64,000 nucleotides of DNA from positions 558,001-622,000 of the forward strand of contig NZ_CP108036.1 in NCBI RefSeq assembly GCF_036170895.1, read 5' to 3'. Each line of letters begins with the position of its first letter. The stretch's first letter is position 1. The position numbers and the translations under genes were made by a program. Under the pieces are notes generated by a model. That model worked only from the letters and a program-made list of their open reading frames with translations. It ran no database searches and had not been told where the DNA came from. The stretch is from Streptomyces erythrochromogenes. Lineage in GTDB: Bacteria > Actinomycetota > Actinomycetes > Streptomycetales > Streptomycetaceae. Shown here piece after piece: positions 1 to 14,192 of the stretch.

Positions 1-1916
1 TTGACCAACAGCGGGAGGGTGTCGAGGGGCGCCTGGTACCCGTCGAGCCGGCCGGGGCCCGCGTACGTGCGGCCCGTCCAGTAGTCCGTCCAGGTGCCGG
101 CCGGCAGGTGGATGCCGTCCCGGACCGTGGTGTCGGAGACGACGGGCGCGACGAGGAGGGAATCGCCCGCCATGAACTGGCCGCTGGTGGCGTTGCCGCG
201 GGCCACCGGGTCGTCGGGGTACTCCAGGACCATGGCGCGGGTGCTGGGGACGCCCGTCTCGTGGGCGACGCGGCTCATCGTGTAGAGGTAGGGCATCAGC
301 CGCATCTTCAGCTGGAGGTACTTGCGGTTGACGGAGAGGTACGGCTCGGCGAACCGCCACGGCTGCTTGTCGTGGTAGCCGGCGGAGGGGTTGACCGCGC
401 CCCAGCCCGACATGGTCATGAAGGCGGGGGTGAAGGCCTTCCACTGGAGGTCGCGGGTGTACGTCTTGGGGCTGCCGCCGAAGATCCCGTCGACGTCACC
501 GGCGGCGTAGTTGAGGCCGGAGAGGCCCGCGCCGGTGATGGCGGGGACGTGCCAGCGCATGTCGTCCCAGGTGCCGTAGGTGTCGCCGGTCCAGACGACG
601 GCGTTGCGCTGGGTGCCCGACCAGCCGTCGACGGTCCACACGAAGCGGCGGGCGTCGGAGTTCTTCTCGATCCCTTCGACGGCCTGCCGCACCCCGTCGA
701 AGGCGTACTTGTAGCCGCTGCCGATCCACGCCACGTCGGTCTTCACGCCCCGGCTGCCGGCGGTGCCCACCTCGTCGGCGATGGAACCGAGGCCGGTCGA
801 GGTCCACAGGCCGGTCTGGAAGCCCTTGGCCCGCAGGGCGTCGACGGTCGATTTCAGGGGTGCGGTGTAGCCGCAGCCGTAGCCGTCGTTGGGGAGGAAC
901 CAGCCCGAGGGCATGTCGGCGGCGCGGGCGTCGGCCGCGTAGCCGACGACATCGGGCGTGGTCTGGTGGCGGGGACGGCCGTGGTCGCCCTGGTAGTCGG
1001 GGTTGGAGGCGTTGAAGCAGTCGGCGTTGCCGAGCTCGAAGCCCCACATCGGTGCCATGAACGGCTTTCCGCTGACGTCGGTGTAGGCGTCGAGCACGGA
1101 TTTCAGCGTATCGCCGGTGAAGTACCAGGCGTCGAAGCGCTTCTCGTCGTGGGCGAGGGTGGTGGGGGCGTTGAATCCGTAGGAGCCCGGGGCCCAGGTG
1201 TTGCGCATGACGCCGTAGCCGTTGGTGGACATGTAGAAGGGGGCGGGGCTGGCGTTGTCGTTCTCGCGCCACTTGTTGTCGACCGCGATGGGGACGGTCT
1301 TGCCGCGCAGCGCCCACTCGCCGAGGCGCAGGCCGGTTCCGTAGAACTGCTCGTCCGCGCCGCGGGCGAGGTACTGCGTGGTGCGGCTGCCGGTCCAGCT
1401 CGTGGGCCGGGTCTCCTGCCAGACGGGGGTGGTGTCACCGGCTCGGTAGACGGAGAACCGCAGCGGCGACTTGTACACACGGATGGAGAGGGAACCCGTG
1501 CTGATCCGGTAGTACGCGCCCGCGTCGGTGCCGGTCGCGGCCACGGAGCCGAAGTCGGTGGTGACGGCGAGGTCGGAGCCGGCCGGGTCGTCGGTGAAGG
1601 TCCCGTCGGGCGAGAGCCAGAGGCGGAAGATGTCGGCGCGGGCGACGACCACGCGGGCCTTGGCGCCGCTGGAGGCCGTGACGGTGAAGGTGTTCCCGGA
1701 CCGGGTGAAGCCGGTGACGTCGCCCGCGGTGGCCGTGGCCCCGGAGGGGGCGGCGGTGGCGGGCGCGACGAGCGGTCCGGCGGCGGCCAGGCCCACGACG
1801 GTGAGGGCGGCGGCGAGCAGGGCGGCGCCCGGGGCGCGCAGGCGCCGTCGCCGTGGTGCGCGCGGCCGCCCGGATAAGGGGGCCCGTCGGCTCCTGCGGA
1901 TGCTGGGCAGTCTCAT
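1..1916 (-). CDS. Secreted GH31 alpha-glycosidase (3' end outside window)
   Basis: Hydrolyses or transfers alpha-linked glycosyl residues outside the cell; alpha-glucosidase, alpha-xylosidase or 6-alpha-glucosyltransferase are all possible. The product starts with an Arg-rich signal peptide and a hydrophobic stretch ending in A-A near residue 56, then a beta-sandwich N-terminal domain, then the GH31 barrel. The barrel carries VKTDVAW, whose Asp fits the catalytic nucleophile, and VWTGDTYGTWDDMRWH, whose first Asp fits the acid/base. About 638 residues are in the window and the reading frame is open at the window edge, so any C-terminal CBM is unseen. ATG at 1916 has GAGGAG eight bases upstream. 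The gene stands alone and is divergent from helR. The family is secure; the substrate is not. Confidence 0.9.
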   Translation of the reverse strand, partial: MRLPSIRRSRRAPLSGRPRAPRRRRLRAPGAALLAAALTVVGLAAAGPLVAPATAAPSGATATAGDVTGFTRSGNTFTVTASSGAKARVVVARADIFRLWLSPDGTFTDDPAGSDLAVTTDFGSVAATGTDAGAYYRISTGSLSIRVYKSPLRFSVYRAGDTTPVWQETRPTSWTGSRTTQYLARGADEQFYGTGLRLGEWALRGKTVPIAVDNKWRENDNASPAPFYMSTNGYGVMRNTWAPGSYGFNAPTTLAHDEKRFDAWYFTGDTLKSVLDAYTDVSGKPFMAPMWGFELGNADCFNASNPDYQGDHGRPRHQTTPDVVGYAADARAADMPSGWFLPNDGYGCGYTAPLKSTVDALRAKGFQTGLWTSTGLGSIADEVGTAGSRGVKTDVAWIGSGYKYAFDGVRQAVEGIEKNSDARRFVWTVDGWSGTQRNAVVWTGDTYGTWDDMRWHVPAITGAGLSGLNYAAGDVDGIFGGSPKTYTRDLQWKAFTPAFMTMSGWGAVNPSAGYHDKQPWRFAEPYLSVNRKYLQLKMRLMPYLYTMSRVAHETGVPSTRAMVLEYPDDPVARGNATSGQFMAGDSLLVAPVVSDTTVRDGIHLPAGTWTDYWTGRTYAGPGRLDGYQAPLDTLPLLV

Positions 1917-1972
1917 GGGCAGCTCCTCGTGCGGTCCGGAGAACGGACACAGCTCTTTGGCATGCACCCGGC

Positions 1973-2001
1973 AAGATAGCGCCCCGGAGGCGTTCTTTGA
2001 A
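1973..2001 (-). promoter_or_regulatory. Predicted promoter of the GH31 gene
   Basis: On the minus strand TTCAAA (1996-2001) and TATCTT (1973-1978) are separated by 17 bp, close to the vegetative consensus, and lie about 57 bp before the ATG. The TCAAAGA motif of the -35 recurs about 37 bp upstream (2035-2041), which could be a repressor half-site pair. Prediction from sequence only. Confidence 0.45.
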
Positions 2002-2201
2002 GGATGCTGCTCGAAGTTGCCCTCCATCACGCATCTTTGAGCATTCGTCAGGTTCGCGTCGGCGCGCGGAAGCCACGGGTGACCAGGCGGTCGCGGCCGC
2101 AACGGGCGGTCGTCGATGCACGGGGACGAAATTGCGGGGGGGGGCGTCCAGAGCGGACGAGAAAGGCAAGGAGGTGAACCCACTCCTTGCCACTCTCAAC
2201 T

Positions 2202-2234
2202 TATAGCGCACCGGGGGGCTTGCGGCAAGGCCCC
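2202..2234 (+). promoter_or_regulatory. Rifamycin-associated element (RAE)-like palindrome with possible -10
   Basis: GGGGCTTGCGGCAAGGCCCC at 2215-2234 is an imperfect inverted repeat (GGGGCTTGC / GCAAGGCCCC). From memory it matches the RAE that precedes rifamycin-inactivation and helR genes in actinomycetes and mediates rifamycin induction. TATAGC at 2202-2207 may be the -10, which would put the element at the transcription start. It lies 60 bp before helR, the gene type expected for it. A second cccc/gggg pairing just downstream could form an alternative hairpin. Confidence 0.75.
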
Positions 2235-2293
2235 GTCGCTGGGGCAAAATCGCGGACCGAAGCCAGAAGCTGCAGAAATGGGAGATCCACGAA

Positions 2294-4516
2294 GTGCATG
2301 CGTTTTTGCCGGTTCACGCATCGCGCGGTGACGTCGAGCAGGTCTCGGTCGCCCCGCGGGCCCGCAGCGCGTTCGACCTTCCCGACCACCTCTCCCCCAA
2401 GGCCGACCCGGCCCTGACCGACGCCGACGAGCGGCACTTCGCCGCCATCTCGGAGAGTCTCGCCCAGTCGATCGGCGAGCTCTCCGACCGCCTGGAGGCC
2501 GAGCGCAGGGCGCCCGGCGGCATCGGCCGGGAGGCGATGGACCGGGACGCCGAGATCCACCGTCTGACCGCCCGCCTGCGCACCCTGCGCCGCTTCGGCC
2601 TGGACCTGTGCCTGGGTCGCGTCGTCCCCGCCGACGGCCACGAGCCCGTGTACGTGGGGCGTCTCGGCCTCACCGACAGCACGGGGCGCAGGCTTCTGCT
2701 CGACTGGCGCTCGCCCGCGGCGGAGCCGTTCTTCGCGGCGACCCACGCCAACCCGATGGGCCTGGCGAGCCGCCGCCGGTACCGCTGGACCGGTGGCCGG
2801 ATCAGCGACTACTGGGACGAGGTCTTCAGCGCCGACGCGCTCGAGGGGCACGCGGCGCTCGACGACCAGTCCGCGTTCATCGCAAGCCTGGGCGGCAACC
2901 GGTCGGCCCGGATGCGCGACGTGCTCTCCACCATCCAGGCCGACCAGGACGCCGTCATCCGCGCGGGGTCCCGCGGCGCACTCGTCGTCGACGGCGGCCC
3001 CGGTACGGGCAAGACCGTCGTCGCGCTGCACCGCGCGGCCCACCTCCTCTACTCCGACCCGCGTCTCGGCCACCGCCGCGGCGGCGTCCTCTTCGTCGGC
3101 CCGCACCAGCCCTACCTGGCCTACGTCGCCGACGTACTGCCCAGCCTCGGCGAGGAGGGCGTGCAGACCTGCACGCTGCGCGACCTCGTGGCGGAGGGCG
3201 CCGGGGCGGCGGAGGAGAGCGACCCGGCCGTGGCCCTGCTCAAGTCCTCCGCGGACCTGGTGAAGGCGGTCGACGCGGCCGTCCGCGTCTACGAGGAGCC
3301 GCCCACCCGCGGGATGACGGTCTCCAGCCACTGGGCCGACGTCTGGCTGAGCGCCGACGACTGGGCGGCTGCGTTCGAGGCGGTGGAACCGGGAACCCCG
3401 CACAACGAAGCCCGCGAGCAGATCCGGGAGGAGTTGATCGCCGTCCTCATGGACAAGCACGAGGACGGCGGCGAGGGCCACGACGTCCCGCCCGAGCTGC
3501 TCCGGCGGTCCCTGCTGCAGGACCGGGAACTGATCAGGACCCTCAACCGGGCGTGGCCGATGCTCGAGGCGACCGACCTCGTCGGGGACCTGTGGTCGGT
3601 GCCCGCCTACCTGCGCAAGTGCGCGCCCTGGCTGGGCCCCGACGACGTGACCAGGCTGCAGCGGGCGGACGCCCAGGCCTGGACGGTGTCCGACCTGCCG
3701 CTCCTGGACGCCGCCCGGCAGCGGCTCGGCGACGCGGAGGCCTCCGTCCGCAGGCGCCGGCACGAGGCCGCCGTCGCCGCCGAGCGCGCCCGCAGGGCCG
3801 ACGCCATCGACAGCCTGCTGCAGAACGTCGTGATCGACGAGAGCGAGGGCGCGATGGGGATGCTGCACGGCCGCGACCTCCAGGACACCCTGATCGACGA
3901 GAGCGGGCTGCCCGGCGCCGAACCGGACCTCCTGGCCGGCCCGTTCGCGCACGTCATCGTGGACGAGGCCCAGGAACTGACCGACGCGGAATGGCAGATG
4001 CTGCTGGCCCGCTGCCCGTCGCGGAGCTTCACGATCGTCGGCGACCGGGCCCAGGCCCGGCACGGGTTCACGGAGTCCTGGACGCAGCGGCTCGAACGCG
4101 TCGGCCTCGACCGGATCACGGTCGCGTCGCTGAGCATCAACTACCGCACCCCGGAGGAGGTCATGGCGGCGGCCGAACCGGCCATCCGGGCCGCGCTGCC
4201 CGACGCCAACGTGCCGACGTCCATCCGCAGCAGCGGCATCCCGGTCGTCCACGGGTGCGTCACCGACCTGGAGTCGGTCCTGGACGGCTGGCTCGCCGCG
4301 CACTCCGGGGGGATCGCCTGCGTCATCGGCGATCCCGCGTTCCGGCCGACCTCCCGCGTCCGGTCGCTGACGCCGACGCTGTCGAAGGGGCTCGAGTTCG
4401 ACCTGGTCGTCCTGGTCGACCCGGACCGGTTCGGCGAGGGCGTGGAGGGAGCCGTCGACCGCTACGTCGCGATGACCCGTGCGACCCGGCAGCTCGTCGT
4501 CCTGACGAGCTCATGA
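2294..4516 (+). CDS. helR: HelR, HelD-family RNA polymerase motor ATPase (rifamycin tolerance)
   Basis: A UvrD/HelD-like ATPase that binds RNA polymerase, displaces rifamycins and recycles stalled polymerase. The 740-residue product has a charged helical N-terminal arm (about 30-110) as in HelD/HelR, a Walker A GGPGTGKT near residue 235, a Walker B VDEAQEL near 555, and the C-terminal GLEFDLVVLVDP and YVAMTRA motifs of superfamily 1 helicases. The GTG start at 2294 has GGGAG ten bases upstream; a start closer to SAFDLPD is conceivable because the first 20 residues look unconserved. An RAE-like element precedes it, which separates HelR from ordinary HelD. A flavin monooxygenase follows after 42 bp and is probably co-transcribed. 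Confidence 0.9.
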   Translation: MHAFLPVHASRGDVEQVSVAPRARSAFDLPDHLSPKADPALTDADERHFAAISESLAQSIGELSDRLEAERRAPGGIGREAMDRDAEIHRLTARLRTLRRFGLDLCLGRVVPADGHEPVYVGRLGLTDSTGRRLLLDWRSPAAEPFFAATHANPMGLASRRRYRWTGGRISDYWDEVFSADALEGHAALDDQSAFIASLGGNRSARMRDVLSTIQADQDAVIRAGSRGALVVDGGPGTGKTVVALHRAAHLLYSDPRLGHRRGGVLFVGPHQPYLAYVADVLPSLGEEGVQTCTLRDLVAEGAGAAEESDPAVALLKSSADLVKAVDAAVRVYEEPPTRGMTVSSHWADVWLSADDWAAAFEAVEPGTPHNEAREQIREELIAVLMDKHEDGGEGHDVPPELLRRSLLQDRELIRTLNRAWPMLEATDLVGDLWSVPAYLRKCAPWLGPDDVTRLQRADAQAWTVSDLPLLDAARQRLGDAEASVRRRRHEAAVAAERARRADAIDSLLQNVVIDESEGAMGMLHGRDLQDTLIDESGLPGAEPDLLAGPFAHVIVDEAQELTDAEWQMLLARCPSRSFTIVGDRAQARHGFTESWTQRLERVGLDRITVASLSINYRTPEEVMAAAEPAIRAALPDANVPTSIRSSGIPVVHGCVTDLESVLDGWLAAHSGGIACVIGDPAFRPTSRVRSLTPTLSKGLEFDLVVLVDPDRFGEGVEGAVDRYVAMTRATRQLVVLTSS

Positions 4517-4558
4517 CCGCCTCCGGCGGCCCTCTCCCGTCCGACCGGAGTACCCGCC

Positions 4559-6199
4559 ATGGCGGTTGACGCGGACGTCGCGGTGGTGGGGGCGGGGCCG
4601 CTCGGGCTGAGCGCCGCGCTCCTGCTCGCCCGGGCGGGGCTGGGCGTCGTGGTGCTGGAACGCCGTCCCGGCCCGGTCACCGAGTCGCGGGCGACGGACC
4701 TGCACGCGCGGACCCTGGAGGCCCTGGCCCCGAGCGGGCTGGCCGAGGCCCTGCACCCGCTGGGGCGGCGCGTGGACACGGTCGACATGTGGTCCGGGCG
4801 GCGCCGGCTCGGCGGCTTCGACCTGGCACGGCTGCGCTCCCCGTACCCGTACGTCCTGACCGTCCCGCAGTGCGCCACCGAGGGACTGCTCGCGGCGGAG
4901 GCCGAGCGCGCGGGCGTGCGCGTGCACCGGGCGGCGGCCGTCCGGTCGGTGGCGGAGGACGCCGGCGGTGTCACCGTACGGTGCGAGGCCCTCGAACCGC
5001 TGCGCGCCCGCTGGGTGGTGGGGGCCGACGGCGCGTCGAGCACCCTGCGCGCCCTGACCGGGACGGCGTTCCGCGGCCGGACCTACGGGGGCACCTGGCA
5101 GCTCGCCGACCTGCAGGTCGACGGTCCTTCGACGGACCCGGCGCGGGTCCACATGGTCGGCGGTCCGCGCGGGCTGCTGGTCGTGCTGCCGATGCACCTG
5201 GACGGCTGGGCCCGGGTGGTGCTGCACCGGCCGGGCGGGCCCGTGCCGGACGGTACGGAGGACCCCTGGTCGCTCGCCGCCGAGGCGGCGGCCCGGGGCT
5301 GGACGGCGAGCGTCCGCGCCTGCCGCTGGACGAGCACCTTCCGCACCCAGCGACGGCTGGCCGGCCGTACGGGGAGCCGGCGGGTGCTGTTGATCGGCGA
5401 CGCCGCCCACGTGTGCAGCCCGATCGGCGGGCAGGGTCTCAACCTCGGGCTCCGGGACGCCGTGTCCCTGGCCTCGGCCCTTCCGGGGGCGGAGCCCGAC
5501 GGGCTCACCGCGTGGCACCGCGGCCGCCGCGCCGACGCCCTGCGCGTCCTGGCCCGTACCGATCTCGCCACGCGCGCCTGGACCCTGCGCGCGGCGCCCG
5601 CCCGGGCCGTCCGCGACACGGCCCTGCGCGGTGCGCTCACCACGCCGGCGGGCCGCCGCCTCCTCGCCGAGGCCGTCGCCGGCCCCGCTTGGCACCCGGA
5701 CGCGCTGACGGTCCGTCGGGGGCGGTCGCGCAGCGGGTGTCCGGGACGGGCGGGCAGAAGACCCTCCGCCGCGCCAGGATCGGGGGCGGCCCGTCCCGGA
5801 GCGGACCGGCTGCTCGGCCAGCTGCCGCCGACGAGGCCCTCGTCAGGGCTTTCACCTGGGGTTTTGACGTCGGGAGATGCAGGTGGGTGGAGCGCGGCGG
5901 ACAATCGGCAGGGATGGGGGGTGACCGGCGGCGGCGTACGCCGCGTCTGCCGCTTCTCGTCGAGAAGGAAGGTAATCCCATGGTTTTCGGATCCGGCCGT
6001 ATACGGCGCGGGTGCACCGCTGTGTGTGCGTCCTCGCTGCTGGTCCTCGGGGGCGCCATCGGCGCCGGAGCGGCTGCCGCCGCTGAGCCCGCGTCTGGGA
6101 CTGTGGGCGCGCGCGCGAGCGTTCCGCTGCAGGTCGACCCCAACGAGTTGCTCAGTCTCGAAAACGCCGCCCGTGCCAAGGCGGGTTGCGGCAACCTGA
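4559..6199 (+). CDS. Rox-like FAD-dependent monooxygenase, 3' end anomalous
   Basis: PheA/TfdB-type aromatic hydroxylase. It has the dinucleotide motif VVGAGPLG at residues 9-16, RATDLHARTLE, a GADGASS motif near 160 and GDAAHVCSPIGGQGLNLG near 280. The closest functional idea is a rifampin monooxygenase (Rox), because the gene sits directly behind RAE-helR and has its own GGAG site. Convincing homology and GC3 stop near 5700 (AWHPDALT, about residue 383). After that the frame runs on with non-coding codon use to 6199 and overlaps the next gene by 220 bp. A one-base shift would end the protein at a TGA at 5706-5708. The usual C-terminal thioredoxin-like part of Rox is absent. The real product is probably about 385-400 residues; a lost stop or an indel is likely. 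Confidence 0.65.
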   Translation: MAVDADVAVVGAGPLGLSAALLLARAGLGVVVLERRPGPVTESRATDLHARTLEALAPSGLAEALHPLGRRVDTVDMWSGRRRLGGFDLARLRSPYPYVLTVPQCATEGLLAAEAERAGVRVHRAAAVRSVAEDAGGVTVRCEALEPLRARWVVGADGASSTLRALTGTAFRGRTYGGTWQLADLQVDGPSTDPARVHMVGGPRGLLVVLPMHLDGWARVVLHRPGGPVPDGTEDPWSLAAEAAARGWTASVRACRWTSTFRTQRRLAGRTGSRRVLLIGDAAHVCSPIGGQGLNLGLRDAVSLASALPGAEPDGLTAWHRGRRADALRVLARTDLATRAWTLRAAPARAVRDTALRGALTTPAGRRLLAEAVAGPAWHPDALTVRRGRSRSGCPGRAGRRPSAAPGSGAARPGADRLLGQLPPTRPSSGLSPGVLTSGDAGGWSAADNRQGWGVTGGGVRRVCRFSSRRKVIPWFSDPAVYGAGAPLCVRPRCWSSGAPSAPERLPPLSPRLGLWARARAFRCRSTPTSCSVSKTPPVPRRVAAT

Positions 6200-6489
6200 C
6201 GATCGACCCCAAGGTGCAGGCCGCGGCCCAAAAGCTCGCCGACGACAACGTGGGCGTCAGCCACACGGGCTCGGACGGCTCCAGCGTCCAGGACCGGCTG
6301 AAGGCTGCCGGAGCGACGTACAACGCGTCCGCCGAGAACGTCTCGCAGGGGACGGATGCAGCGCAGGGGCACTTCGACCGGTGGATGAACTCCACCGGGG
6401 TCCACAAGCAAAACATCCTCAACTGCGCTTACACCAAGACGGGCATCGCGGTCAATGGCGACAGGGTCGTGCAGGTGTTCACCGACTGA
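5980..6489 (+). CDS. Secreted CAP (SCP/PR1) domain protein
   Basis: A 169-residue exported protein: signal peptide with hydrophobic core CASSLLVLGGAIGAGAAAAAE (cleavage near residue 35), then one compact CAP domain. Family signatures are the helix ending in CGNLTIDPKVQAAAQKLADD, VSHTG, the AENVSQG strand, and the W-M-NS-x-HKQNIL box followed by KTGIAV. CAP proteins of this type are secreted, often lipid- or wall-associated, with no agreed enzymatic role. ATG 5980 follows GAAGGAAGG at the right distance, better evidence than anything in the overlapping upstream frame. Two Cys residues (in GCGNL and ILNC) could form a disulfide. Confidence 0.85.
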   Translation: MVFGSGRIRRGCTAVCASSLLVLGGAIGAGAAAAAEPASGTVGARASVPLQVDPNELLSLENAARAKAGCGNLTIDPKVQAAAQKLADDNVGVSHTGSDGSSVQDRLKAAGATYNASAENVSQGTDAAQGHFDRWMNSTGVHKQNILNCAYTKTGIAVNGDRVVQVFTD

Positions 6490-6518
6490 CCGGATCGGAT
6501 CGGCACGCCGGCGCCGGC

Positions 6519-6755
6519 TCAGCCGGCGTCGGCGTGACCGTGTACCCGTGGCGGGGTGACCGCGAGGACGGGCGGGGCAGGGGTGCTCCAGCGGTGGCCG
6601 CAGGGGTCGAAGACCAGAAGCACCGGCCGTCCCGGGCGCTGGCGCCAGGAGATGCGTTCCGGCAGGCCGTCGCACACCGGACAGCACGGCAACGGGCCGT
6701 GCTCCGGCGCGCACCCGGGGGCGGCCGCGAGCGGCGTGACGTGCGGATCGCGCAT
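6519..6755 (-). CDS. Small Cys-rich hypothetical protein
   Basis: A 78-residue protein of unknown function. It has CCPVC in the middle and a FDPCGHRW motif 25 residues later, so CxxC plus C-x-H could form a small zinc site. ATG at 6755 follows GGGAG; the frame stays open further upstream, but that part has no start signal. It is convergent with the CAP gene and lies 143 bp downstream of the response-regulator gene on the same strand, so it may be the last gene of that transcript. Small actinobacterial proteins of this kind are common and uncharacterised. Confidence 0.5.
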   Translation of the reverse strand: MRDPHVTPLAAAPGCAPEHGPLPCCPVCDGLPERISWRQRPGRPVLLVFDPCGHRWSTPAPPVLAVTPPRVHGHADAG

Positions 6756-6898
6756 GGAGGCTCCCTGGTCGTGCGGTTGGGCTGATCGCACTGTGCCATG
6801 CCCGGGGCCTCCTCCGCACGGGCGAATCATCCAGTGTTCTGGCTGGTCAGAGGTGCGGTCACCAGGAGGATTCCGGTCCTCTTGCGGGCACTCCGTGA

Positions 6899-7573
6899 TC
6901 AACCGCTCCCGCAACCGGCCTCCACCAGGCCCGATTCGTACGCCGCTATCACCGCCTGGGCGCGGTCGCGGACGCCCAGCTTGCCGAAGATGCCGGTGAT
7001 GTGGTTCTTGACCGTGGAGACGCTGATGTCCAGTTCTGCGGCGATCTCCGCGTTGTCGAGCCCGGCGGCCAGGAGCTGCCAGATCTCCCGTTCGCGCGGG
7101 GTCATGTCGGTCGGGGCCGCCGCGGCTGCCACGGCCGGGCGGGCGGGCGCGGGGGTCCGTACGTAGGCGGAGAGCAGCCGGGTGAGCAGCCGGGGTGCGA
7201 CGACCGCCTCACCGCCGTGCACGGTGCGGACCGCGGCGCCCAGTTCCTCCGGGGAGACGTCCTTCGGGAGGAAGCCGTACGCTCCCGCGCGCAGGGCGGC
7301 GACCACGTACTCGTCCATGTCGAAGGTGCTGAGCGCCAGGACGCGGACGTCGGGGAGGGTCCGCGCCAGTTCCGCGGTGGCCTGGACGCCGTCGAGGACG
7401 GGCATCCGGATGTCCATGACGACCACGTCGGGCCGCAGTTCCCGGGCGAGGGCGACGGCGCGGGCGCCGTCCTCGGCCTCGCCGACCACCTCGAACTCGG
7501 GGTCCGGGCCGAGGATCAGGGCGAGGCCCCGCCGGACCAGCGGCTGGTCGTCGGCTATGAGCACACGGATCAT
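6899..7573 (-). CDS. NarL/LuxR-family response regulator
   Basis: DNA-binding partner of the histidine kinase encoded just upstream. The 224-residue product has a receiver domain with acidic pocket D8-D9, phosphoacceptor D54 in VVMDIRMP, the switch Thr/Ser in LALST and Lys in FLPKDV. A flexible Ala/Pro linker leads to a LuxR-type helix-turn-helix from about 155 to 210 (TPREREIWQLLAAGLDNAEIAAEL, STVKNHI). Its ATG overlaps the kinase stop by four bases (ATGA), so the two are translationally coupled. The inverted repeat in front of the divergent MMPL gene is a natural candidate target. Confidence 0.92.
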   Translation of the reverse strand: MIRVLIADDQPLVRRGLALILGPDPEFEVVGEAEDGARAVALARELRPDVVVMDIRMPVLDGVQATAELARTLPDVRVLALSTFDMDEYVVAALRAGAYGFLPKDVSPEELGAAVRTVHGGEAVVAPRLLTRLLSAYVRTPAPARPAVAAAAAPTDMTPREREIWQLLAAGLDNAEIAAELDISVSTVKNHITGIFGKLGVRDRAQAVIAAYESGLVEAGCGSG

Positions 7574-8739
7574 CGGTGTCGTTCCCCTCCCTCGCCGCCC
7601 CGCCCCGCCGGTACCGGGAGGCGGGCCGCCACCCGGAATCCCCCGCCGTCGCGTGCGGCAGCCTCCAGGGTCCCGCCCTGGAGGGCTACGCGTTCGTGCA
7701 TTCCGATCAGACCGTACCCGGTGCCCGCGGCGGGCCTGGCGGTCGGCGGCGGCGCACCGGCTCCGTCGTCGCACACCTCCACGGCGACCTCGTCCGGGTG
7801 GTACGTCACCCGGACCCGGGCGCGCGCCTGCCCGGCGTGCTTGCGGGTGTTGGTGAGCGCCTCCTGCACGATGCGGAAGAGGGTGAGGCCGACGCTGGGC
7901 GGCAGCGGGCGGACGGGGCCGTCGACGGTGAACTCCGTCTCCGTTCCGGCCAGCCGTGACTCGGTGACGATCCGCTCCAGGTCCGCGGCACCCGGCTGAG
8001 GCGCCGGAGGGGTTTCGTCCGGTTCTTCTCCGGCCCGCAGGACGTCGAGGAGTTGGCGCATCTCGCGCAGGGCGATGCGGCCGGAGTCCTCCAGGATGAC
8101 GAGGGCTTCGCGGGCCGCCTCGGTGTCGTGCGCCAGGTTGGCCCGGGCGCCGCCCGCCATCAGCTGCATGGCGGTGATGTGGTGGGCGACGATGTCGTGG
8201 AGTTCCCGGGCGATCCGGCGGCGTTCCTCGGCGACCGCGCGCTCGGCCTGGCGGGCCTGGTTGGCCGCGACGTCCCGCTGCCAGCGGTTGATGACCAGGG
8301 CGGTGCCCGCGACCAGGGCTGCGGCCGCCGCATTGGCGGCGAGGGACAGGCCGGACGGAACGAGCGTGCCGCCCTGGCCCGCCGAGGCCAGCGGCACGGT
8401 CAGGGCGACGGCCGCTGCTGCGACCGCGGGCCGGCTGAAGCGGACCACCGAGTACAGGGCGACGGCGAGGCCGAGGGGGAAGTGCGGCGAGGTGTCCGCG
8501 ATGACCACGTTGGGCACGACCCCCAGGGCCAGCACGGCCGCCAGCACGGCGACCGGCCGGCTGCGGCGCGCGAGCAGGCACATGGCGGCGGCCACGAGTG
8601 CGCCGGCGGCCGAGAGGGTGAGGGACATCCCTTCGGTCTGGGTTCCGACCGAGAACCCCAGCAGGTCCGCCGCGGCGGCGCCGATGGCCACCAATGCGTC
8701 GTTGCGCGTCCAGCGCAGCATGTCGGCGCCCTTGCCCAT
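7570..8739 (-). CDS. Sensor histidine kinase, HisKA_3/DesK-NarX type
   Basis: Membrane sensor that phosphorylates the response regulator encoded after it. The 389-residue protein has several N-terminal membrane helices (about residues 12-150) without a large extracellular domain. The dimerisation helix is RIARELHDIVAHH with phosphoacceptor H181. The ATP-binding domain carries N-box FRIVQEALTNTRKHA, G1 CDDGAGAP and the GYGLIGMHERVALQGG box. ATG 8739 has GGGGAGGA about ten bases upstream; a second ATG at 8721 has no such site. Membrane-stress sensors often have this shape, which fits the divergent MMPL exporter. Confidence 0.9.
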   Translation of the reverse strand: MGKGADMLRWTRNDALVAIGAAAADLLGFSVGTQTEGMSLTLSAAGALVAAAMCLLARRSRPVAVLAAVLALGVVPNVVIADTSPHFPLGLAVALYSVVRFSRPAVAAAAVALTVPLASAGQGGTLVPSGLSLAANAAAAALVAGTALVINRWQRDVAANQARQAERAVAEERRRIARELHDIVAHHITAMQLMAGGARANLAHDTEAAREALVILEDSGRIALREMRQLLDVLRAGEEPDETPPAPQPGAADLERIVTESRLAGTETEFTVDGPVRPLPPSVGLTLFRIVQEALTNTRKHAGQARARVRVTYHPDEVAVEVCDDGAGAPPPTARPAAGTGYGLIGMHERVALQGGTLEAAARDGGGFRVAARLPVPAGRGGEGGERHR

Positions 8740-8857
8740 CTTTGCCGATCCTCCCCCGCCGGCGGGCCTTCCCGCCGGTGCGGGGCGGTTCGTGCCGGTT
8801 CCTCGCGTTCCATTCTGGCAGTCCGGCCGGCCGGTGCCGCCGTCCGGTGGTCTGGTT

Positions 8858-8885
8858 CCCGACCAGGACCAGGGTCCTGGTCGGG
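8858..8885. promoter_or_regulatory. Perfect 13-bp inverted repeat (candidate operator)
   Basis: CCCGACCAGGACC (8858-8870) and its exact reverse complement (8873-8885) are separated by only AG. The hexamer GACCAG occurs again immediately downstream. It lies between the divergent kinase and MMPL genes, 125 bp before the MMPL start. Spacing and symmetry fit a regulator dimer site better than a terminator, because no gene ends here. Confidence 0.55.
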
Positions 8886-9009
8886 ACCAGGATCCGGACC
8901 CTGCTCCCGGGGGCGGTTCCTCCCGTACGGCGACGATCGCGCGGTCCGCGCCTGATGGTCTGGAGACCGGCCGGGAACCCCCGGCCCGCCCCGCGACCTG
9001 AGGAGTCAC

Positions 9010-11211
9010 GTGATCCGCGCCCTGACCGGGTTCTCGACGAGGAATCCGTGGAAGGTGATCGCCGTCTGGGCCGTGCTCGGCATCGCCCTGACGATCGCCG
9101 GCCAGGCGTTCGTCTTCCGCGCCACCCAGAGCAACACGGGCGATTTCCTGCCCCCGTCCTACGACTCGGCGGCGGCCCTGAAGGTCGCCGAGGAGCGGTT
9201 CGGGGTGAAGCCGGACGCCAACACCCTGACCGTGCTGGTGGCCCGGCCGGACGGCACGCGGCTGAGCGAGGCCGACGAACGGCGCATCGACGCGGAGGCC
9301 TCGAAGCTGGGCCGCCACCGGGTGGCCATGCCCAAGCCCGAGGAGGAGACGCCGTTCGCCCAGGACCACTCGCAGACCCCGAAGGTCGCGCCGGTCATGA
9401 CGGCTCCCGACCGCGACTTCCGCCTGCTGTCCGTGGAGCTGAAGGGCAACCCCCAGGACCCCGGACTCCAGGACACCTACCGGGCCTTCCGCGAGCAGTC
9501 CCGGGCCGGGTTCGCCGAGGCCGGGTTCCGCACCGGCTACACGGGCGGGCTCGCCTCGACCGTCGACGACATCGACGCCGAGGAGACCCGGGCCCGGGTG
9601 ATCGGCGCCGTGATGCTCGGCGTGATCGTGCTGCTGCACGTGCTGGTGTTCCGCAGCGTGCTCGCCGCCCTCCTGCCGCTGATCGTCGTGTCCATCATCG
9701 GCGGAGCCGCGACGGGCACGGTGGTCGGCGCCGCGATGCTGACCGGCGTCACCCTCGACCCCTCCACCCCGCAGCTGATCAGCGTCGTGCTGGTGGGCAT
9801 CGGCATCGACTACTTCCTCTTCCTGCTGTTCCGCTTCCGCGAGCAGTTGCGCCGGCGGCCCGAGCAGCCGGGGCGGGCCGCGGCGGCCGAGGTGTCCGGG
9901 CGCGTGGGTACGGCGGTGACCTCGGCGGCGCTCACCATCGTCGCGGCGTTCGCCACGCTCGGGGTGGCCTCCTTCGGGCAGTTCCGGGTGCTCGGTCCGG
10001 CCATCGCCGTGTCCGTGCTGGTGATGCTCCTCGGCAGCCTCACCTTCATGCCGGCGCTGCTCGCGGTCACCGGGCGCAGGATGTTCTGGCCCTCGCGGTC
10101 CCACCGGCGCGAGCCCCGCGGCGGATCGGCCGCCCGGCTGGGCACGTGGCTGGTCCGGCGTCCCCTCACGGCGGCCCTCGCCTCCGTGGCACTGCTGGGC
10201 GCCCTCGCCGCGGGCATGGCCGGCATGCGGATGGACTACGGGTCGGGCGGCGCGGGCGGTGAGCGGACGGCCGCCGCGGCCACCGCGGCCGAGATCTCCC
10301 GGGCGATGCCGGCCGGTGTGTCGGATCCCATCAGCGTCTACGTCACCGCGTCGGACGGGGCACCGCTCACCACCGGGCGTCTCGACGGCCTGTCCGGGAC
10401 GCTCTCCCGGCTGGAGGGGGTGGGGCAGGCCGCCCCGACGGTGCTGAGCGAGGACCGCCTGGCGGCGCGCATCGACCTGTTCCCGAACGCCGATCCGCAC
10501 GGGCAGGAGGCCCGCGACCTGGCGTCGGGCACGGTCCGCGACGCGGTCTCCGCGCACCGGCCGGCCGGTACCGAGGCCCATGTGGGCGGCACCGCGGCGG
10601 TGTTCGCCGACGTCTCGACGGCCGTGGACAAGGACCTGCGGCTGGTGTTCCCGGTCGCGGCGGCCCTGATCGCGCTGATCCTGTTCCTGCTGCTGCGCAG
10701 CCTTCTCGCTCCGCTGATCCTGATGCTCGCGGTGGGTCTGGGGTTCGCCGCCACGCTGGGTGCCGCGGCGCTCGTCTTCCAGCACGGGCTGGACCAGCCG
10801 GGCGTGGCCTTCACGCTGCCGCTGGTGCTGTTCCTGTTCGTGGTCGCGCTGGGCACCGACTACAACATCCTCGTGACCGACCGGATCCGGGAAGAGATGG
10901 AACGGCCCGGTCCGGCCCGGGAGGCGGTGGCGCGGGCGGTACGGCACACCGCGCCGGCCGTGGCGACGGCCGGGGTGGTGCTGGCCGCCTCCTTCGGCAG
11001 CCTCGCGGTCAACCCGGTCGCGGCCACGCAGCAGATCGGCTTCGCGACGGCGCTCGGGATCCTGCTCTCCGCCTTCGTCCTGTCGATCGTCCTGGTACCG
11101 GCGTGCGCGGTGCTCCTGGGCCGGTCCCTCTGGTGGCCCGCGAAGCCCCGGCCGGCGGCGCTCCGGCCCGCGCCGGAAGCCGGGACGCCGGAACGCGTCC
11201 TGGTGCCCTGA
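9010..11211 (+). CDS. MMPL/RND-family transporter
   Basis: Inner-membrane, proton-driven exporter of lipids or drugs in the MMPL/ActII-3 family. The 733-residue protein has the standard two-fold plan: one N-terminal helix (WKVIAVWAVLGIALTIAG), a periplasmic-type domain (about 40-190), six helices, then a repeat starting near residue 380 with a second loop and five or six helices. Characteristic motifs are GIGIDYFLFLLFRFRE in the first half and ALGTDYNILVTDRIREE in the second, both with the proton-relay Asp-Tyr. GTG 9010 has AGGAG at 9001-9005. It is divergent from a two-component system that probably controls it. Substrate unknown. Confidence 0.92.
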   Translation: MIRALTGFSTRNPWKVIAVWAVLGIALTIAGQAFVFRATQSNTGDFLPPSYDSAAALKVAEERFGVKPDANTLTVLVARPDGTRLSEADERRIDAEASKLGRHRVAMPKPEEETPFAQDHSQTPKVAPVMTAPDRDFRLLSVELKGNPQDPGLQDTYRAFREQSRAGFAEAGFRTGYTGGLASTVDDIDAEETRARVIGAVMLGVIVLLHVLVFRSVLAALLPLIVVSIIGGAATGTVVGAAMLTGVTLDPSTPQLISVVLVGIGIDYFLFLLFRFREQLRRRPEQPGRAAAAEVSGRVGTAVTSAALTIVAAFATLGVASFGQFRVLGPAIAVSVLVMLLGSLTFMPALLAVTGRRMFWPSRSHRREPRGGSAARLGTWLVRRPLTAALASVALLGALAAGMAGMRMDYGSGGAGGERTAAAATAAEISRAMPAGVSDPISVYVTASDGAPLTTGRLDGLSGTLSRLEGVGQAAPTVLSEDRLAARIDLFPNADPHGQEARDLASGTVRDAVSAHRPAGTEAHVGGTAAVFADVSTAVDKDLRLVFPVAAALIALILFLLLRSLLAPLILMLAVGLGFAATLGAAALVFQHGLDQPGVAFTLPLVLFLFVVALGTDYNILVTDRIREEMERPGPAREAVARAVRHTAPAVATAGVVLAASFGSLAVNPVAATQQIGFATALGILLSAFVLSIVLVPACAVLLGRSLWWPAKPRPAALRPAPEAGTPERVLVP

Positions 11212-11249
11212 GCACCGCGGCCCCTACGAACGCAGGCGCCGGGCGCGCG

Positions 11250-11267
11250 GGATCCCGTACGGGATCC
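11250..11267. terminator. Palindrome between convergent genes (possible terminator)
   Basis: GGATCCCGTACGGGATCC is a perfect 18-bp palindrome in the 126-bp gap between the convergent MMPL and betaine-transporter genes. It could act as a bidirectional terminator, although the absence of a loop and of a T tract makes an operator possible too. Confidence 0.35.
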
Positions 11268-11337
11268 GCGTGCACCGGCGCCTCCGGGCGGCGGGCCGCC
11301 CTCCGGGTCGGGCCGTCCTCCCTGTCCGGCCTCGTCG

Positions 11338-13131
11338 TCAGGACAGTGCGGCGACCTCGGGGTGGTCTCCCAGCCACGCGCGGACCGCCTGCTGCTCCTT
11401 GCCCTTGCCGGTCTGCTGGATCCGCGCCTCCAGGCCGGTGAGCTGCTCCTCGGTGAGCTTGAAGGAGCGCAGCCAGGCGGCCACCTCGGGCTCGTCGGCG
11501 GCGAAGCCCTTGCGGGCCAGGGTGTGGATGCCGTCGCCCTTGCCCCAGACGCCCTTGGGGTCCTCCAGCTTGGTCAGCTCGTACGAGGAGTACGCCCAGT
11601 GCGGCGACCACAGGACGGTGACCACCGGCTCCTTCTTGTCGTAGGCGCGCCCCAGTTCGGCGAGCATGCCGGGGGTGGAGCCGTCGACGACCTGGTACTC
11701 GCCCTCCAGGCCGTACTCCTTCATGACCTTGTCCTTCAGCAGGCTCATGGCGCCGGCGCTCGGCTCGATGCCGATGATGCGGCCCTTGAACTGCCCGGAC
11801 TTGCCCTTGAGGTCGGCGAGCGAGCGGACGTCCTTCATGTACGAGGGCACGGCGAGCTCGATGGAGGTCGGGCCGTACCAGGAGCCGAGGTCTTCCAGCT
11901 TGTTGCCGTACTTCTCCCAGTACTGGGCGTGGGTGACGGGCAGCCAGGCGTCGGTCTGGAAGTCGAGGCCGCCGCCGGCCAGGCCGGTGTAGAGCGCGCC
12001 GGCCTCCAGCTGCCGGGTGTCGACCTTGAAGCCGCGCCGTTCCAGGAGCTCCTTCCAGAGGAAGGTGGAGGCGATGCCCTCGTCCCACGGGATGTAGCCG
12101 ATCGAGACGGTGCGGCCCTTGCCGATGTTCTCGGCGCCTTCCGGTCCCTCCTCGCGGGCGGCGCCGCCGAAGGTGCTCAGGCCGCCCGCGACCAGGGCCA
12201 GTACGACGGCTCCGGTGACGGCGTAGGCGGGCTGGGGGCGGTGGTTCCACACGCGGGCGGCGCCGGTGGCGGCCGACCGGGCCCTGGCGAGGGTGCGCCG
12301 GCCGAGCGGGGAGACCTGGCGGCCGAGGGCCCCGGTCATCCGGTCGAGGTACATGGCGAGGATCACGATGGAGAGGCCGGCCTCGAAGCCGAGCCCGATG
12401 TCGACGTTGCCGATGGCCCGGTAGACGGCGCCGCCGAGTCCGCCGCCGCCGACCATGCCGGCGATGACGACCATGGACAGGCCGAGCATGATGACCTGGT
12501 TGACGCCCGCCATGAGGGTGGGCAGGGCCAGCGGCAGCTGGACGCGGACGAGGGTGTCGCGCGGGGTGGTGCCGAACGCTTCGGCGGCCTCGACCAGTTC
12601 GGCGTCGACCTGGCGGATGCCGAGTTCGGTCATCCGTACGCCCGGCGGCAGCGAGAAGACGATGGTAGCGATGATGCCGGGCACCACGCCGACCCCGAAG
12701 AAGATGATGCCGGGGATGAGGTAGACCATGGCCGGCATGGTCTGCATGAAGTCGAGGACCGGCTTCATGACGGCGCTGACCCGGTCGGACCGGGCCGCCC
12801 AGATGCCGAGCGGGATCGCGAACACCAGGGTGACGAGGGTGGCGACCAGGACCAGCGACAGCGTGGACATGGCGTCGGACCAGAGCCCGACGGAGTCGAC
12901 GAGGGCGAAACCGGCGAAGGCGAGCACGCCCGCGAGCAGGCCGCGCAGCCACCAGGCCGCGATGGCGAGGATGCCCGCGAACAGCAGCGGGGCGGGCGCG
13001 GAGAGGACGGCGACGAGGCCGTCGTAGAGACCGGTGACGAGTGCGCTGATGGCGTCGAACAGCCAGGACAGCCGGCTCTGGAGGAAGTCGACTCCGCTGT
13101 CGACCCAGGCGCCGAGGGGAATGCGGGGCAT
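11338..13131 (-). CDS. Glycine betaine/proline-type ABC permease fused to substrate-binding domain
   Basis: Import of quaternary-ammonium osmoprotectants (OpuA/ProU class). One 597-residue chain combines both parts. Residues 1-280 are a permease with about six helices and the EAA-type loop VEAAEAFGTTPRDTLVRVQLPLALPT. A further helix (about 305-325) leads to an OpuAC-type extracytoplasmic binding domain (345-597). Its signs are VSIGYIPWDEGIASTFLWKELLE, DFQTDAWLPVTHAQYWEKY and VTVLWSPHWAY, whose Trp residues belong to the betaine box. Fusion of permease and receptor is known in this family (OpuABC-like). It shares one base with the ATPase gene stop (TGATG), so it is the second gene of the operon. 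Confidence 0.92.
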   Translation of the reverse strand: MPRIPLGAWVDSGVDFLQSRLSWLFDAISALVTGLYDGLVAVLSAPAPLLFAGILAIAAWWLRGLLAGVLAFAGFALVDSVGLWSDAMSTLSLVLVATLVTLVFAIPLGIWAARSDRVSAVMKPVLDFMQTMPAMVYLIPGIIFFGVGVVPGIIATIVFSLPPGVRMTELGIRQVDAELVEAAEAFGTTPRDTLVRVQLPLALPTLMAGVNQVIMLGLSMVVIAGMVGGGGLGGAVYRAIGNVDIGLGFEAGLSIVILAMYLDRMTGALGRQVSPLGRRTLARARSAATGAARVWNHRPQPAYAVTGAVVLALVAGGLSTFGGAAREEGPEGAENIGKGRTVSIGYIPWDEGIASTFLWKELLERRGFKVDTRQLEAGALYTGLAGGGLDFQTDAWLPVTHAQYWEKYGNKLEDLGSWYGPTSIELAVPSYMKDVRSLADLKGKSGQFKGRIIGIEPSAGAMSLLKDKVMKEYGLEGEYQVVDGSTPGMLAELGRAYDKKEPVVTVLWSPHWAYSSYELTKLEDPKGVWGKGDGIHTLARKGFAADEPEVAAWLRSFKLTEEQLTGLEARIQQTGKGKEQQAVRAWLGDHPEVAALS

Positions 13132-14192
13132 CAGGCGGCCACCTCCGCGCAGCGCACCGGGGCCCGTTGCTCGTCACCGATGAAGGCGACGAGGCGGTCC
13201 TGGGGTACGGAGCCGACGACGCCGCCGTCGGTGCCGGTGACGGCGACCGGGTGCGGGACGCGCGCGCTGACGGCGCACAGGTCGGCGAGGGGGGTGTCGG
13301 CGCTGACGGTGGGGCAGCCGCAGGTGCCTGCGTGGGGGCGGGCCGGGCCGGTCGTCGTCATCACCGCGTCGGCGGTCAGCACCCGGGAGCGGTCGACGTC
13401 CTGGACGAAGGAGGCGACGTAGTCGTCGGCGGGGCGGGTGAGGATGTCCTCGGCCGTGCCCTGCTGGACGATGCGGCCGTCGCGCATGACGGCGATGCCG
13501 TCGCCCAGGCGCATGGCCTCGTTGAGGTCGTGCGTGATGAAGACGATGGTCTTGCGCAGGCTGCGCTGGAGTTCGAGGAGCTGGTCCTGCATGTCGCGGC
13601 GGATGAGCGGGTCCAGGGCGCTGAAGGACTCGTCCATCAGCAGGAGGTCGGCGTCGGTGGCCAGGGCCCGGGCGAGGCCGACTCTCTGCTGCATGCCGCC
13701 GGAGAGCTCGTCGGGCCAGGCCATCTCCCAGCCTTCGAGCCCGCACAGGGCCAGGGCCTCGGCTGCCCGGCGGTCGCGCTCGGCGCGGGGCACCCCCTGT
13801 ACCTCCAGCCCGTAGCCGGCGTTCTCCAGAACGTTGCGGTGCGGGAAGAGAGCGAAGTGCTGGAAGACCATGGATATCTTCGTGGACCGGACGCGGCGCA
13901 GCTCGCGCGCGCTGAGCGCGGTGAGGTCCTGGCCGCCGAAGAGGATGCGTCCCGCGGTGGGCTCGAGCAGGCCGTTCAGCATGCGCAGCAGGGTGGACTT
14001 GCCGGAACCCGACAGCCCCATGACGACGAAGATCTGGCCGGGCTCGACGTCGAAGGAGACGTCGATGACCGCGGCCGTCGCTCCGTCGGCGCGCAGCTCG
14101 GCGCGGTCGCTGCCGCCTTCGAGTGCGCGCACGGCGTCATCGGGCCGGTTTCCGAACACCTTGTAGACGTGCTCGGCCTGGAGCGTTGACAC
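13131..14192 (-). CDS. Glycine betaine/proline-type ABC transporter ATPase
   Basis: Energises the fused permease/receptor encoded next. The 353-residue product has Walker A GLSGSGKST, signature LSGGMQQRVGLARAL, Walker B LLMDESFSALDP and the H-loop VFITHDLNEAMRLGD. A C-terminal CBS-like region (about 285-350) includes VPHPVAVTGTDGGVVGSVPQDRLVAFI; CBS modules in OpuAA sense ionic strength. Only one partial module is visible, with CGCP at its start. The chosen GTG at 14192 has GAGG five bases ahead; the frame is open further upstream, but that part has no homology. Confidence 0.9.
   Translation of the reverse strand: MSTLQAEHVYKVFGNRPDDAVRALEGGSDRAELRADGATAAVIDVSFDVEPGQIFVVMGLSGSGKSTLLRMLNGLLEPTAGRILFGGQDLTALSARELRRVRSTKISMVFQHFALFPHRNVLENAGYGLEVQGVPRAERDRRAAEALALCGLEGWEMAWPDELSGGMQQRVGLARALATDADLLLMDESFSALDPLIRRDMQDQLLELQRSLRKTIVFITHDLNEAMRLGDGIAVMRDGRIVQQGTAEDILTRPADDYVASFVQDVDRSRVLTADAVMTTTGPARPHAGTCGCPTVSADTPLADLCAVSARVPHPVAVTGTDGGVVGSVPQDRLVAFIGDEQRAPVRCAEVAA

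Follow-up and report, generated by a model that had tools for sequence, protein, structure and literature searches.

A probably inserted RAE-helR cassette in front of an unrelated short flavin monooxygenase gene in Streptomyces erythrochromogenes

The RAE-helR-monooxygenase locus

A rifamycin-associated element (RAE), helR and a gene for a flavin monooxygenase (FMO) follow one another near the start of a 64,000-nucleotide stretch of Streptomyces erythrochromogenes DNA (NZ_CP108036.1, positions 558,001 to 622,000), which is called the window here. Genomes are given G-numbers, such that G000 is the window genome, G042 is Streptomyces virginiae NRRL ISP-5094 and the others are genomes of relatives. 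The features of the locus, in window coordinates, are the following.

1-1917, minus strand: GH31-type glycoside hydrolase gene, the left neighbour, running off the window (PF01055, E 4e-26; PF13802, E 2.1e-13)
2058-4547, plus strand: RAE-helR cassette, the segment absent at the empty site of G199, from flank alignment (G227 ends within about 20 nt)
2165-2191, plus strand: second inverted repeat of the RAE leader, GGCAAGGAG (2165-2173) and CTCCTTGCC (2183-2191), from a repeat search; the arms covary over related leaders
2202-2207, plus strand: TATAGC, a -10-like block conserved in RAE leaders, with a putative promoter role (information content per column 1.8-2.0 bits in 94 leaders, 2.0 in the final column)
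2215-2234, plus strand: RAE palindrome, exact match
2245-2250, plus strand: CAAAAT, in register with a conserved GCAGAAT in the leader alignment; putative -10 of a second promoter with its -35 within the RAE
2294-4516, plus strand: helR, 740 aa (NF041254, motor_HelR, 1269.8 bits, cut-off 750); start at GTG 2294, with ATG 2298 also possible
4517-4558, plus strand: helR-FMO junction, 42 nt, with no promoter or terminator pattern found and a strong predicted fold over the FMO start
4546-4551, plus strand: CGGAGT, decayed counterpart of the TANNNT (-10) hexamer found in 11 of 13 FMO loci
4559-5686, plus strand: short group A flavin monooxygenase (FMO), conserved part, 376 aa (PF01494, E 2.5e-54; extent from relatives and alignment; model pLDDT 90.3)
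5980-6489, plus strand: gene for a CAP-domain protein, the right neighbour (PF00188, E 2.3e-13)

The RAE palindrome, GGGGCTTGCGGCAAGGCCCC, is the only site in the window at up to three mismatches, seen on both strands as a palindrome must be, and 0.10 matches would be expected by chance. It is also the sole exact RAE in the 8.6 Mb genome, which has one more site at a single mismatch; the sites at two and three mismatches are background, given that a reversed control yields 4+4 sites against 3+3 for the real pattern at up to three mismatches. The gene 3' of the palindrome, whose GTG lies 59 nt beyond the end of the RAE and whose TGA stop is at 4514-4516, is by its family score a true helR, of the class II HelD type. 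The earlier note on this DNA had named both the element and the HelR behind it, and both identifications hold.

The combination of RAE and helR is already known from the available portions of PMC8655204, PMC10719064 and PMC12802891, and the available portion of PMC10194278 places RAEs upstream of several putative helicases. The window resembles the RAE-helR pairs of Streptomyces venezuelae and Mycobacterium abscessus, as far as these appear in the accessible text of PMC10719064 and PMC8655204, in having an RAE palindrome in the 5' region and a HelR family protein, which in the window scores well above the family cut-off. Unlike in those pairs, helR of the window is followed after 42 nt by a monooxygenase gene, and its induction by rifamycin is a prediction for this species. 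helR is present in 186 of 295 congeners (E<=1e-200). A promoter architecture with the -35 element in the RAE, as is proposed here for CAAAAT, has been described for mycobacteria in the accessible text of PMC10719064. No Rfam family was found at gathering score in 1900-6600.

The RAE site with one mismatch (C1:7764348-7764367) lies 5' of an rph-like gene, and the whole leader is common to both sites. The first 483 residues encoded by this gene, which is as far as the locus extends, score 806.5 bits to NF041857, for which the cut-off of 999 applies to the whole protein. Arr was searched for in the same genome and was not found, and no alteration was seen in the rifamycin region of RpoB, where the stretch compared is identical to that of three relatives.

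The FMO gene begins at the next ATG (4559), 42 nt 3' of the helR stop, as previously noted, and its end had to be corrected. The TGA at 5706-5708, formerly taken as the stop, lies in a different frame from ATG 4559 (offset 1). The frame from 4559 continues to 6199 and extends over part of the CAP-domain gene, which is read in another frame. Of 7997 candidates scored in a search for homologues, 72 proteins reached E<=1e-40. Close full-length relatives have about 372-406 aa, a 449-aa protein and some fragments also being among the homologues, and a 99% identical relative has 383 aa. Therefore, the conserved FMO ends near residue 376 (5686), and by comparison with relatives the frame from 5687 to 6199 is an unconserved run-on. 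The protein has the FAD_binding_3 fold, with G11, G13 and G16, D157 and G158, and G280 and D281 invariant in 27 alignment rows; these we take to be the motifs named GxGxxG, DG and GD in group A flavin monooxygenases. An AlphaFold model has a pLDDT of 90.3. The invariant FAD motifs suggest that the FMO is a working enzyme. The dN/dS between G000 and G042 is 0.316 for the FMO, the highest of 15 FMO pairs (0.157-0.264 for the others) and well under 1, compared with 0.173 for helR. These ratios point to a gene still under purifying selection, perhaps slightly relaxed.

Empty sites and the promoter of the monooxygenase gene

The FMO was found in 6 of 295 congeners (E<=1e-70) and in 7 of 392 in a second draw, largely the same genomes, while a family-wide draw of 200 genomes returned it in the window genome and in three genomes of another genus, g14. 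All six FMO congeners also have helR, and the two genes are adjacent in G000 and G042 only, separated by 42 and 10 nt, respectively. Among the best 30 helR loci, the FMO is within 1.5 kb in two only. A search for RAE-helR-monooxygenase synteny, as suggested in the earlier note, found the pairing in 2 of the 186 helR genomes, which rules out a conserved arrangement.

An orthologue of the GH31-type gene lies beside the FMO in G042, G199 and G227. In G199 and G227 these two genes are side by side without helR between them, with approximately 400 nt between the matched parts, the 5' end of the GH31-type gene included, and the helR genes of both genomes sit elsewhere. The G199 site aligns to the window up to about 2057 and again from about 4548; for G227 the match stops at about 2052 and resumes at about 4568. 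From these breaks, the difference between the occupied and the empty sites is the RAE-helR cassette. The same two-component genes flank the FMO on its other side, at a distance of about 0.4 kb in G199 and about 6 kb in G227, and the CAP-domain gene that follows the FMO in G000 and G042 was not detected in the FMO neighbourhoods of these two genomes. In the 11 FMO loci besides G000 and G042, flanks of at least 1.5 kb each way (0.6 kb upstream in G033) contain neither helR nor a RAE. The loci outside this group of relatives come from other Streptomyces, Kitasatospora sp. MBT63 and the three g14 genomes. The cassette ends (2021-2110 against 4501-4575) have no common exact word of 7 or more bases, and no target-site duplication was found between them; these ends bear no mark of a transposition event.

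A TANNNT hexamer, mostly TAGAGT, is located 6-7 nt 5' of the start codon in 11 of the 13 FMO loci, and is probably the -10 element of a leaderless promoter, judging from its position. The exceptions are Isolate_45 and the window, where the block reads CGGAGT. G042 keeps TAGAGT, whose TAG doubles as the stop of helR and lies 10 nt from the FMO start. The cassette thus sits between the FMO -10 and its former upstream part. Transcription of helR and the FMO as one unit, which had been raised as a condition for a joint response, is probable on these grounds: the gap is 42 or 10 nt, no terminator or promoter pattern was found between the genes, and the -10 of the FMO is cut off and, in the window strain, decayed.

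The locus is likely, therefore, to be the product of an insertion, in which a RAE-helR cassette came to lie before a pre-existing and unrelated FMO gene that is now most simply read through from the helR promoter. A cassette of approximately 2.5 kb would have entered between the divergent GH31-type gene and the short FMO gene in the common ancestor of the window strain and Streptomyces virginiae. The event would have left the FMO coding region intact and detached the -10 element of the FMO promoter, which was probably leaderless, from the upstream DNA. The FMO would thereby have become the second gene behind helR, reached by read-through from a rifamycin-responsive promoter (promoter capture), while HelR presumably keeps its known job of protecting RNA polymerase. 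On this arrangement of sequences, helR and the FMO appear to resemble an operon by accident of position and not by design. The locus would then show a drug-responsive resistance cassette moving to a new site and putting an unrelated gene under what is predicted to be rifamycin control.

It is rather unlikely that the two genes are mere neighbours, with the FMO still read from its own promoter and indifferent to rifamycin. Such independence would be easiest to picture in G042, where TAGAGT is intact and the 3' coding DNA of helR could supply a new -35 element, and this possibility also counts against promoter capture. In the window strain the block has become CGGAGT. A scan of 1900-6600 found no sigma-70-like promoter and no terminator pattern (0.1 and 0.7 expected by chance), a result of little weight against an FMO promoter since the same scan also misses the RAE promoters. 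Read-through need not bring much FMO protein, given that the RNA of 4490-4570 is predicted to form a fold of -40.7 kcal/mol (z -4.2 against shuffles) that covers the FMO start and could keep translation low. Given this predicted fold, ribosomes coming off helR may be needed for the FMO to be translated at more than a low level.

The monooxygenase compared with Rox

The placing of the FMO in the Rox superfamily, made in the earlier note, stands if the superfamily is taken broadly, as group A flavin monooxygenases in general, and does not extend to Rox proper. The FMO scores 172.8 bits to the Rox profile NF033145, for which the cut-off is 800, and takes sixth of 24 places in its own genome, where five proteins score higher and none reaches the cut-off. 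In a quick tree of 58 proteins, which includes several long branches, the 19 rows of the FMO family and the 14 of Rox form separate groups with 99-100% SH-aLRT. The FMO thus falls far from Rox, a placement that the earlier note had listed, together with a lack of rifamycin turnover, as refuting its proposal. The FMO and 30 Streptomyces Rox loci are 33-37% identical over 320-395 residues. The FMO lacks the C-terminal domain of Rox, with a conserved length of approximately 376-383 aa compared with 470-487 aa in the 14 Rox rows. The absence of this extension had been correctly noted, and is true of the whole short family.

Another protein of the same genome (C1:7050491-7051867) is a Rox-like monooxygenase with 454 bits to the Rox profile, below the cut-off, and has no RAE (at up to one mismatch) nearby. 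It forms a long branch that groups with Rox (98%), and is nearer to Rox than the window FMO is.

The substrate pocket has diverged as well. Of the 14 rifampicin-contact residues given for RIFMO in the available part of PMC11375879, the FMO keeps six. Its changes include F69 to V, V71 to T, F74 to M, R201 to L, T284 to I and L341 to W, at positions that include some nearly fixed in Rox: F74 is kept in 14 of 14 Rox rows, and T284 and R201 in 13 of 14 each. Two further changes occur in Rox itself, in that R43, which is T in the FMO, is kept in none of the 14 Rox rows (13 L, 1 Q), and I215, which is V in the FMO, is likewise V in 9 of 14. Rox was discovered by way of the RAE, according to the accessible text of PMC7283461, and 28 of 30 Rox loci have a RAE within 1.5 kb (up to four mismatches), compared with a background of 11 in 954 windows of 660 nt. 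The FMO has no RAE directly upstream and is reached only through helR. The FMO shares with Rox/RIFMO (PDB 5vqb, 6brd, 5kow, 5kox) the group A fold and the FAD motifs, and differs in falling outside the Rox clade, in lacking the C-terminal domain and an RAE of its own, and in its pocket residues. Identification as Rox is ruled out by family score, tree, pocket and domain.

Rox structures are the top matches of a PDB sequence search with the FMO (147.5 and 141.4 bits), and the frame is under purifying selection. Both would be expected if the FMO were a diverged hydroxylase of rifamycin or another ansamycin, working within the RAE response, such that RAE-helR-FMO formed a functional operon for protection plus modification and replaced Rox. 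The close spacing of helR and the FMO in both species, tighter in G042, would fit such an operon, as would the lack of a Rox above cut-off in G000 and G042 when 92 of 150 congeners have one. This reading is nevertheless quite unlikely. The family score, the separate clade and the pocket substitutions all speak against it, as does the absence of RAE and helR from the examined flanks of the 11 other FMO loci. A structure search with the FMO model ranks MtmOIV first (TM 0.81) and gives PnpA a TM of 0.86 and the Rox chains 0.74-0.80, so that on the model these and other group A hydroxylases are as near to the FMO as Rox; their substrates differ, and none is orthologous to the FMO. The window genome also has the rph-like gene behind an RAE already. 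The absence of Rox was considered as support for a hydroxylase role and rejected, because no protein reaches the cut-off in 58 of the 150 congeners, among them G000, and G033 and G034 carry a true Rox as well as the FMO.

Drug modification, the half of the proposed joint response that had been assigned to the FMO, thus finds no support in score, clade, domain or pocket, or in the FMO loci elsewhere. Rifamycin hydroxylation by the FMO is unsupported by its sequence, and the protein is probably not a rifamycin-destroying enzyme. From its conserved motifs it would be a functional-looking NAD(P)H/FAD hydroxylase, presumably of another aromatic or polyketide substrate. The case is a warning that a neighbour should not be named Rox-like from its position and superfamily.

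As to the direction of the change, an rpoB tree puts G000/G042, G199/G227 and five other genomes in one clade and leaves the order of the three subclades open. The HelR of G000/G042 groups with that of the neighbouring subclade and the HelR of G199/G227 stands apart, a pattern compatible with both orders. A single insertion is a more economical account than a deletion, given that 11 other FMO loci are without helR or RAE in the examined flanks and all but one of them have the -10 block. That the adjacency is older, and that G199/G227 deleted helR there and regained one elsewhere, is highly improbable: the differing HelR lineage of G199/G227 and the open subclade order would allow it, but the outside FMO loci have no helR in the examined flanks and all except Isolate_45 have the -10 block, which is also in place in G199/G227 and which a deletion would have had to rebuild.

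The RAE leader and RAE-rgt-helR tandems

An inverted repeat lies 5' of the RAE in the window (2159-2197) and in 93 related leaders, and its arms change together before helR, rgt and rox. The 94 leaders comprise 38 of helR, 27 of a class with a distant RAE, 28 of the 30 of rox and one of rph, those without an RAE having been dropped. Approximately 70 nt are conserved over them, including CTCCTTGCCACTCTCAAC.TATAGCGCAC.GGGGGGCTTGCGGCAAGGCCCC and GCAGAATC. CTCCTTGCC pairs with a left arm situated 8-9 nt upstream in most leaders, at a mean of 8.1 of 9 positions, compared with 7.2 for arms taken from other leaders and 5.8 after shuffling. Since a whole-leader MAFFT alignment left the left arms unaligned, covariation was scored with the tested position left out, which kept 86-90 leaders and dropped the 4-8 of 94 that fitted badly. 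Three stem positions covary (T-A 68 and C-G 6; T-A 69 and C-G 7; G-C 65 and T-A 12), and each value was reached by 0 of 2000 shuffles, which do not remove relatedness. Four other positions are not clearly above the shuffles (117-503 of 2000), and two are invariant on the right side. Of the 37 leaders whose right arm departs from the consensus, 21 have a left side that matches the leader's own arm better, 7 one that matches it worse, and 9 show no difference. The second stem thus carries compensatory changes before helR, rgt and rox, and is present at rph.

In mycobacteria the RAE is approximately 20 bp downstream of a start site, according to the available portion of PMC10719064; with such a start, the stem would stay untranscribed. 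The RAE makes up only the 3' portion of the leader. It can be suggested only tentatively, and on the condition that the stem works at the RNA level or, together with the RAE, as one of a pair of DNA elements, that the rifamycin sensor of actinobacteria is a structured leader of two elements, stem and RAE, and extends beyond the 19-bp operator. If so, the helR-FMO locus would be a self-contained sensor-plus-helR cassette that captured a neighbouring gene.

Sixty-six of the 186 helR loci were surveyed, selected mostly by likeness to the helR of the window, with those of the FMO genomes and of G016 added, and thus a non-random sample. A RAE is within 500 nt before helR in 38 of the 66, and a Rgt-like glycosyltransferase is encoded between the RAE and helR in 26. 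The counts come from wider scans, as a 460-nt upstream window misses RAEs before rgt. Of the other two loci, G077 has its RAE at -1115 with no Rgt detected, and G187 has no RAE within 1700 nt before helR. None of the 26 tandems has an extra RAE right before helR. Eight better-ranked loci outside the survey, with flanks of 1.5 kb, include three with a full Rgt before helR (the RAE inside the flank in one), four with an RAE and no Rgt, and one with a piece of Rgt. On the HelR tree the arrangement requires 10 changes, at least five of them forced. In the last of those eight loci (G023), the piece of Rgt has 120 residues and lies between RAE and helR, as if rgt had been mostly lost.

The RAE-rgt-helR tandem is like the arrangement first proposed for the window in that a single RAE precedes a drug-modifying gene and helR, and differs in that the modifier is a Rgt-like glycosyltransferase upstream of helR, with no monooxygenase. 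The idea of modification plus protection behind one RAE thus has its counterpart in other Streptomyces (26 of 66 loci), and is unsupported for the window in its drug-modification half. This frequent arrangement, with genes for drug modification and for target protection following a single RAE, bears, like the covarying second stem, on how actinobacteria sense rifamycin. No mention of helR-monooxygenase pairs, rgt-helR tandems or the second stem was found in the available portions of the RAE and HelR literature, and the main papers may describe them.

The tandem of G016 has its RAE at 10219, the glycosyltransferase gene up to 11513 and helR at 11651-13831, and its Rgt copy scores 502.6 bits to NF000354 over nearly the whole length (cut-off 800). 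In the same locus, a transporter gene, judged by eye to be of the MFS type, forms an island with the RAE-rox and RAE-rgt-helR units inside 9 kb (4853-13831).
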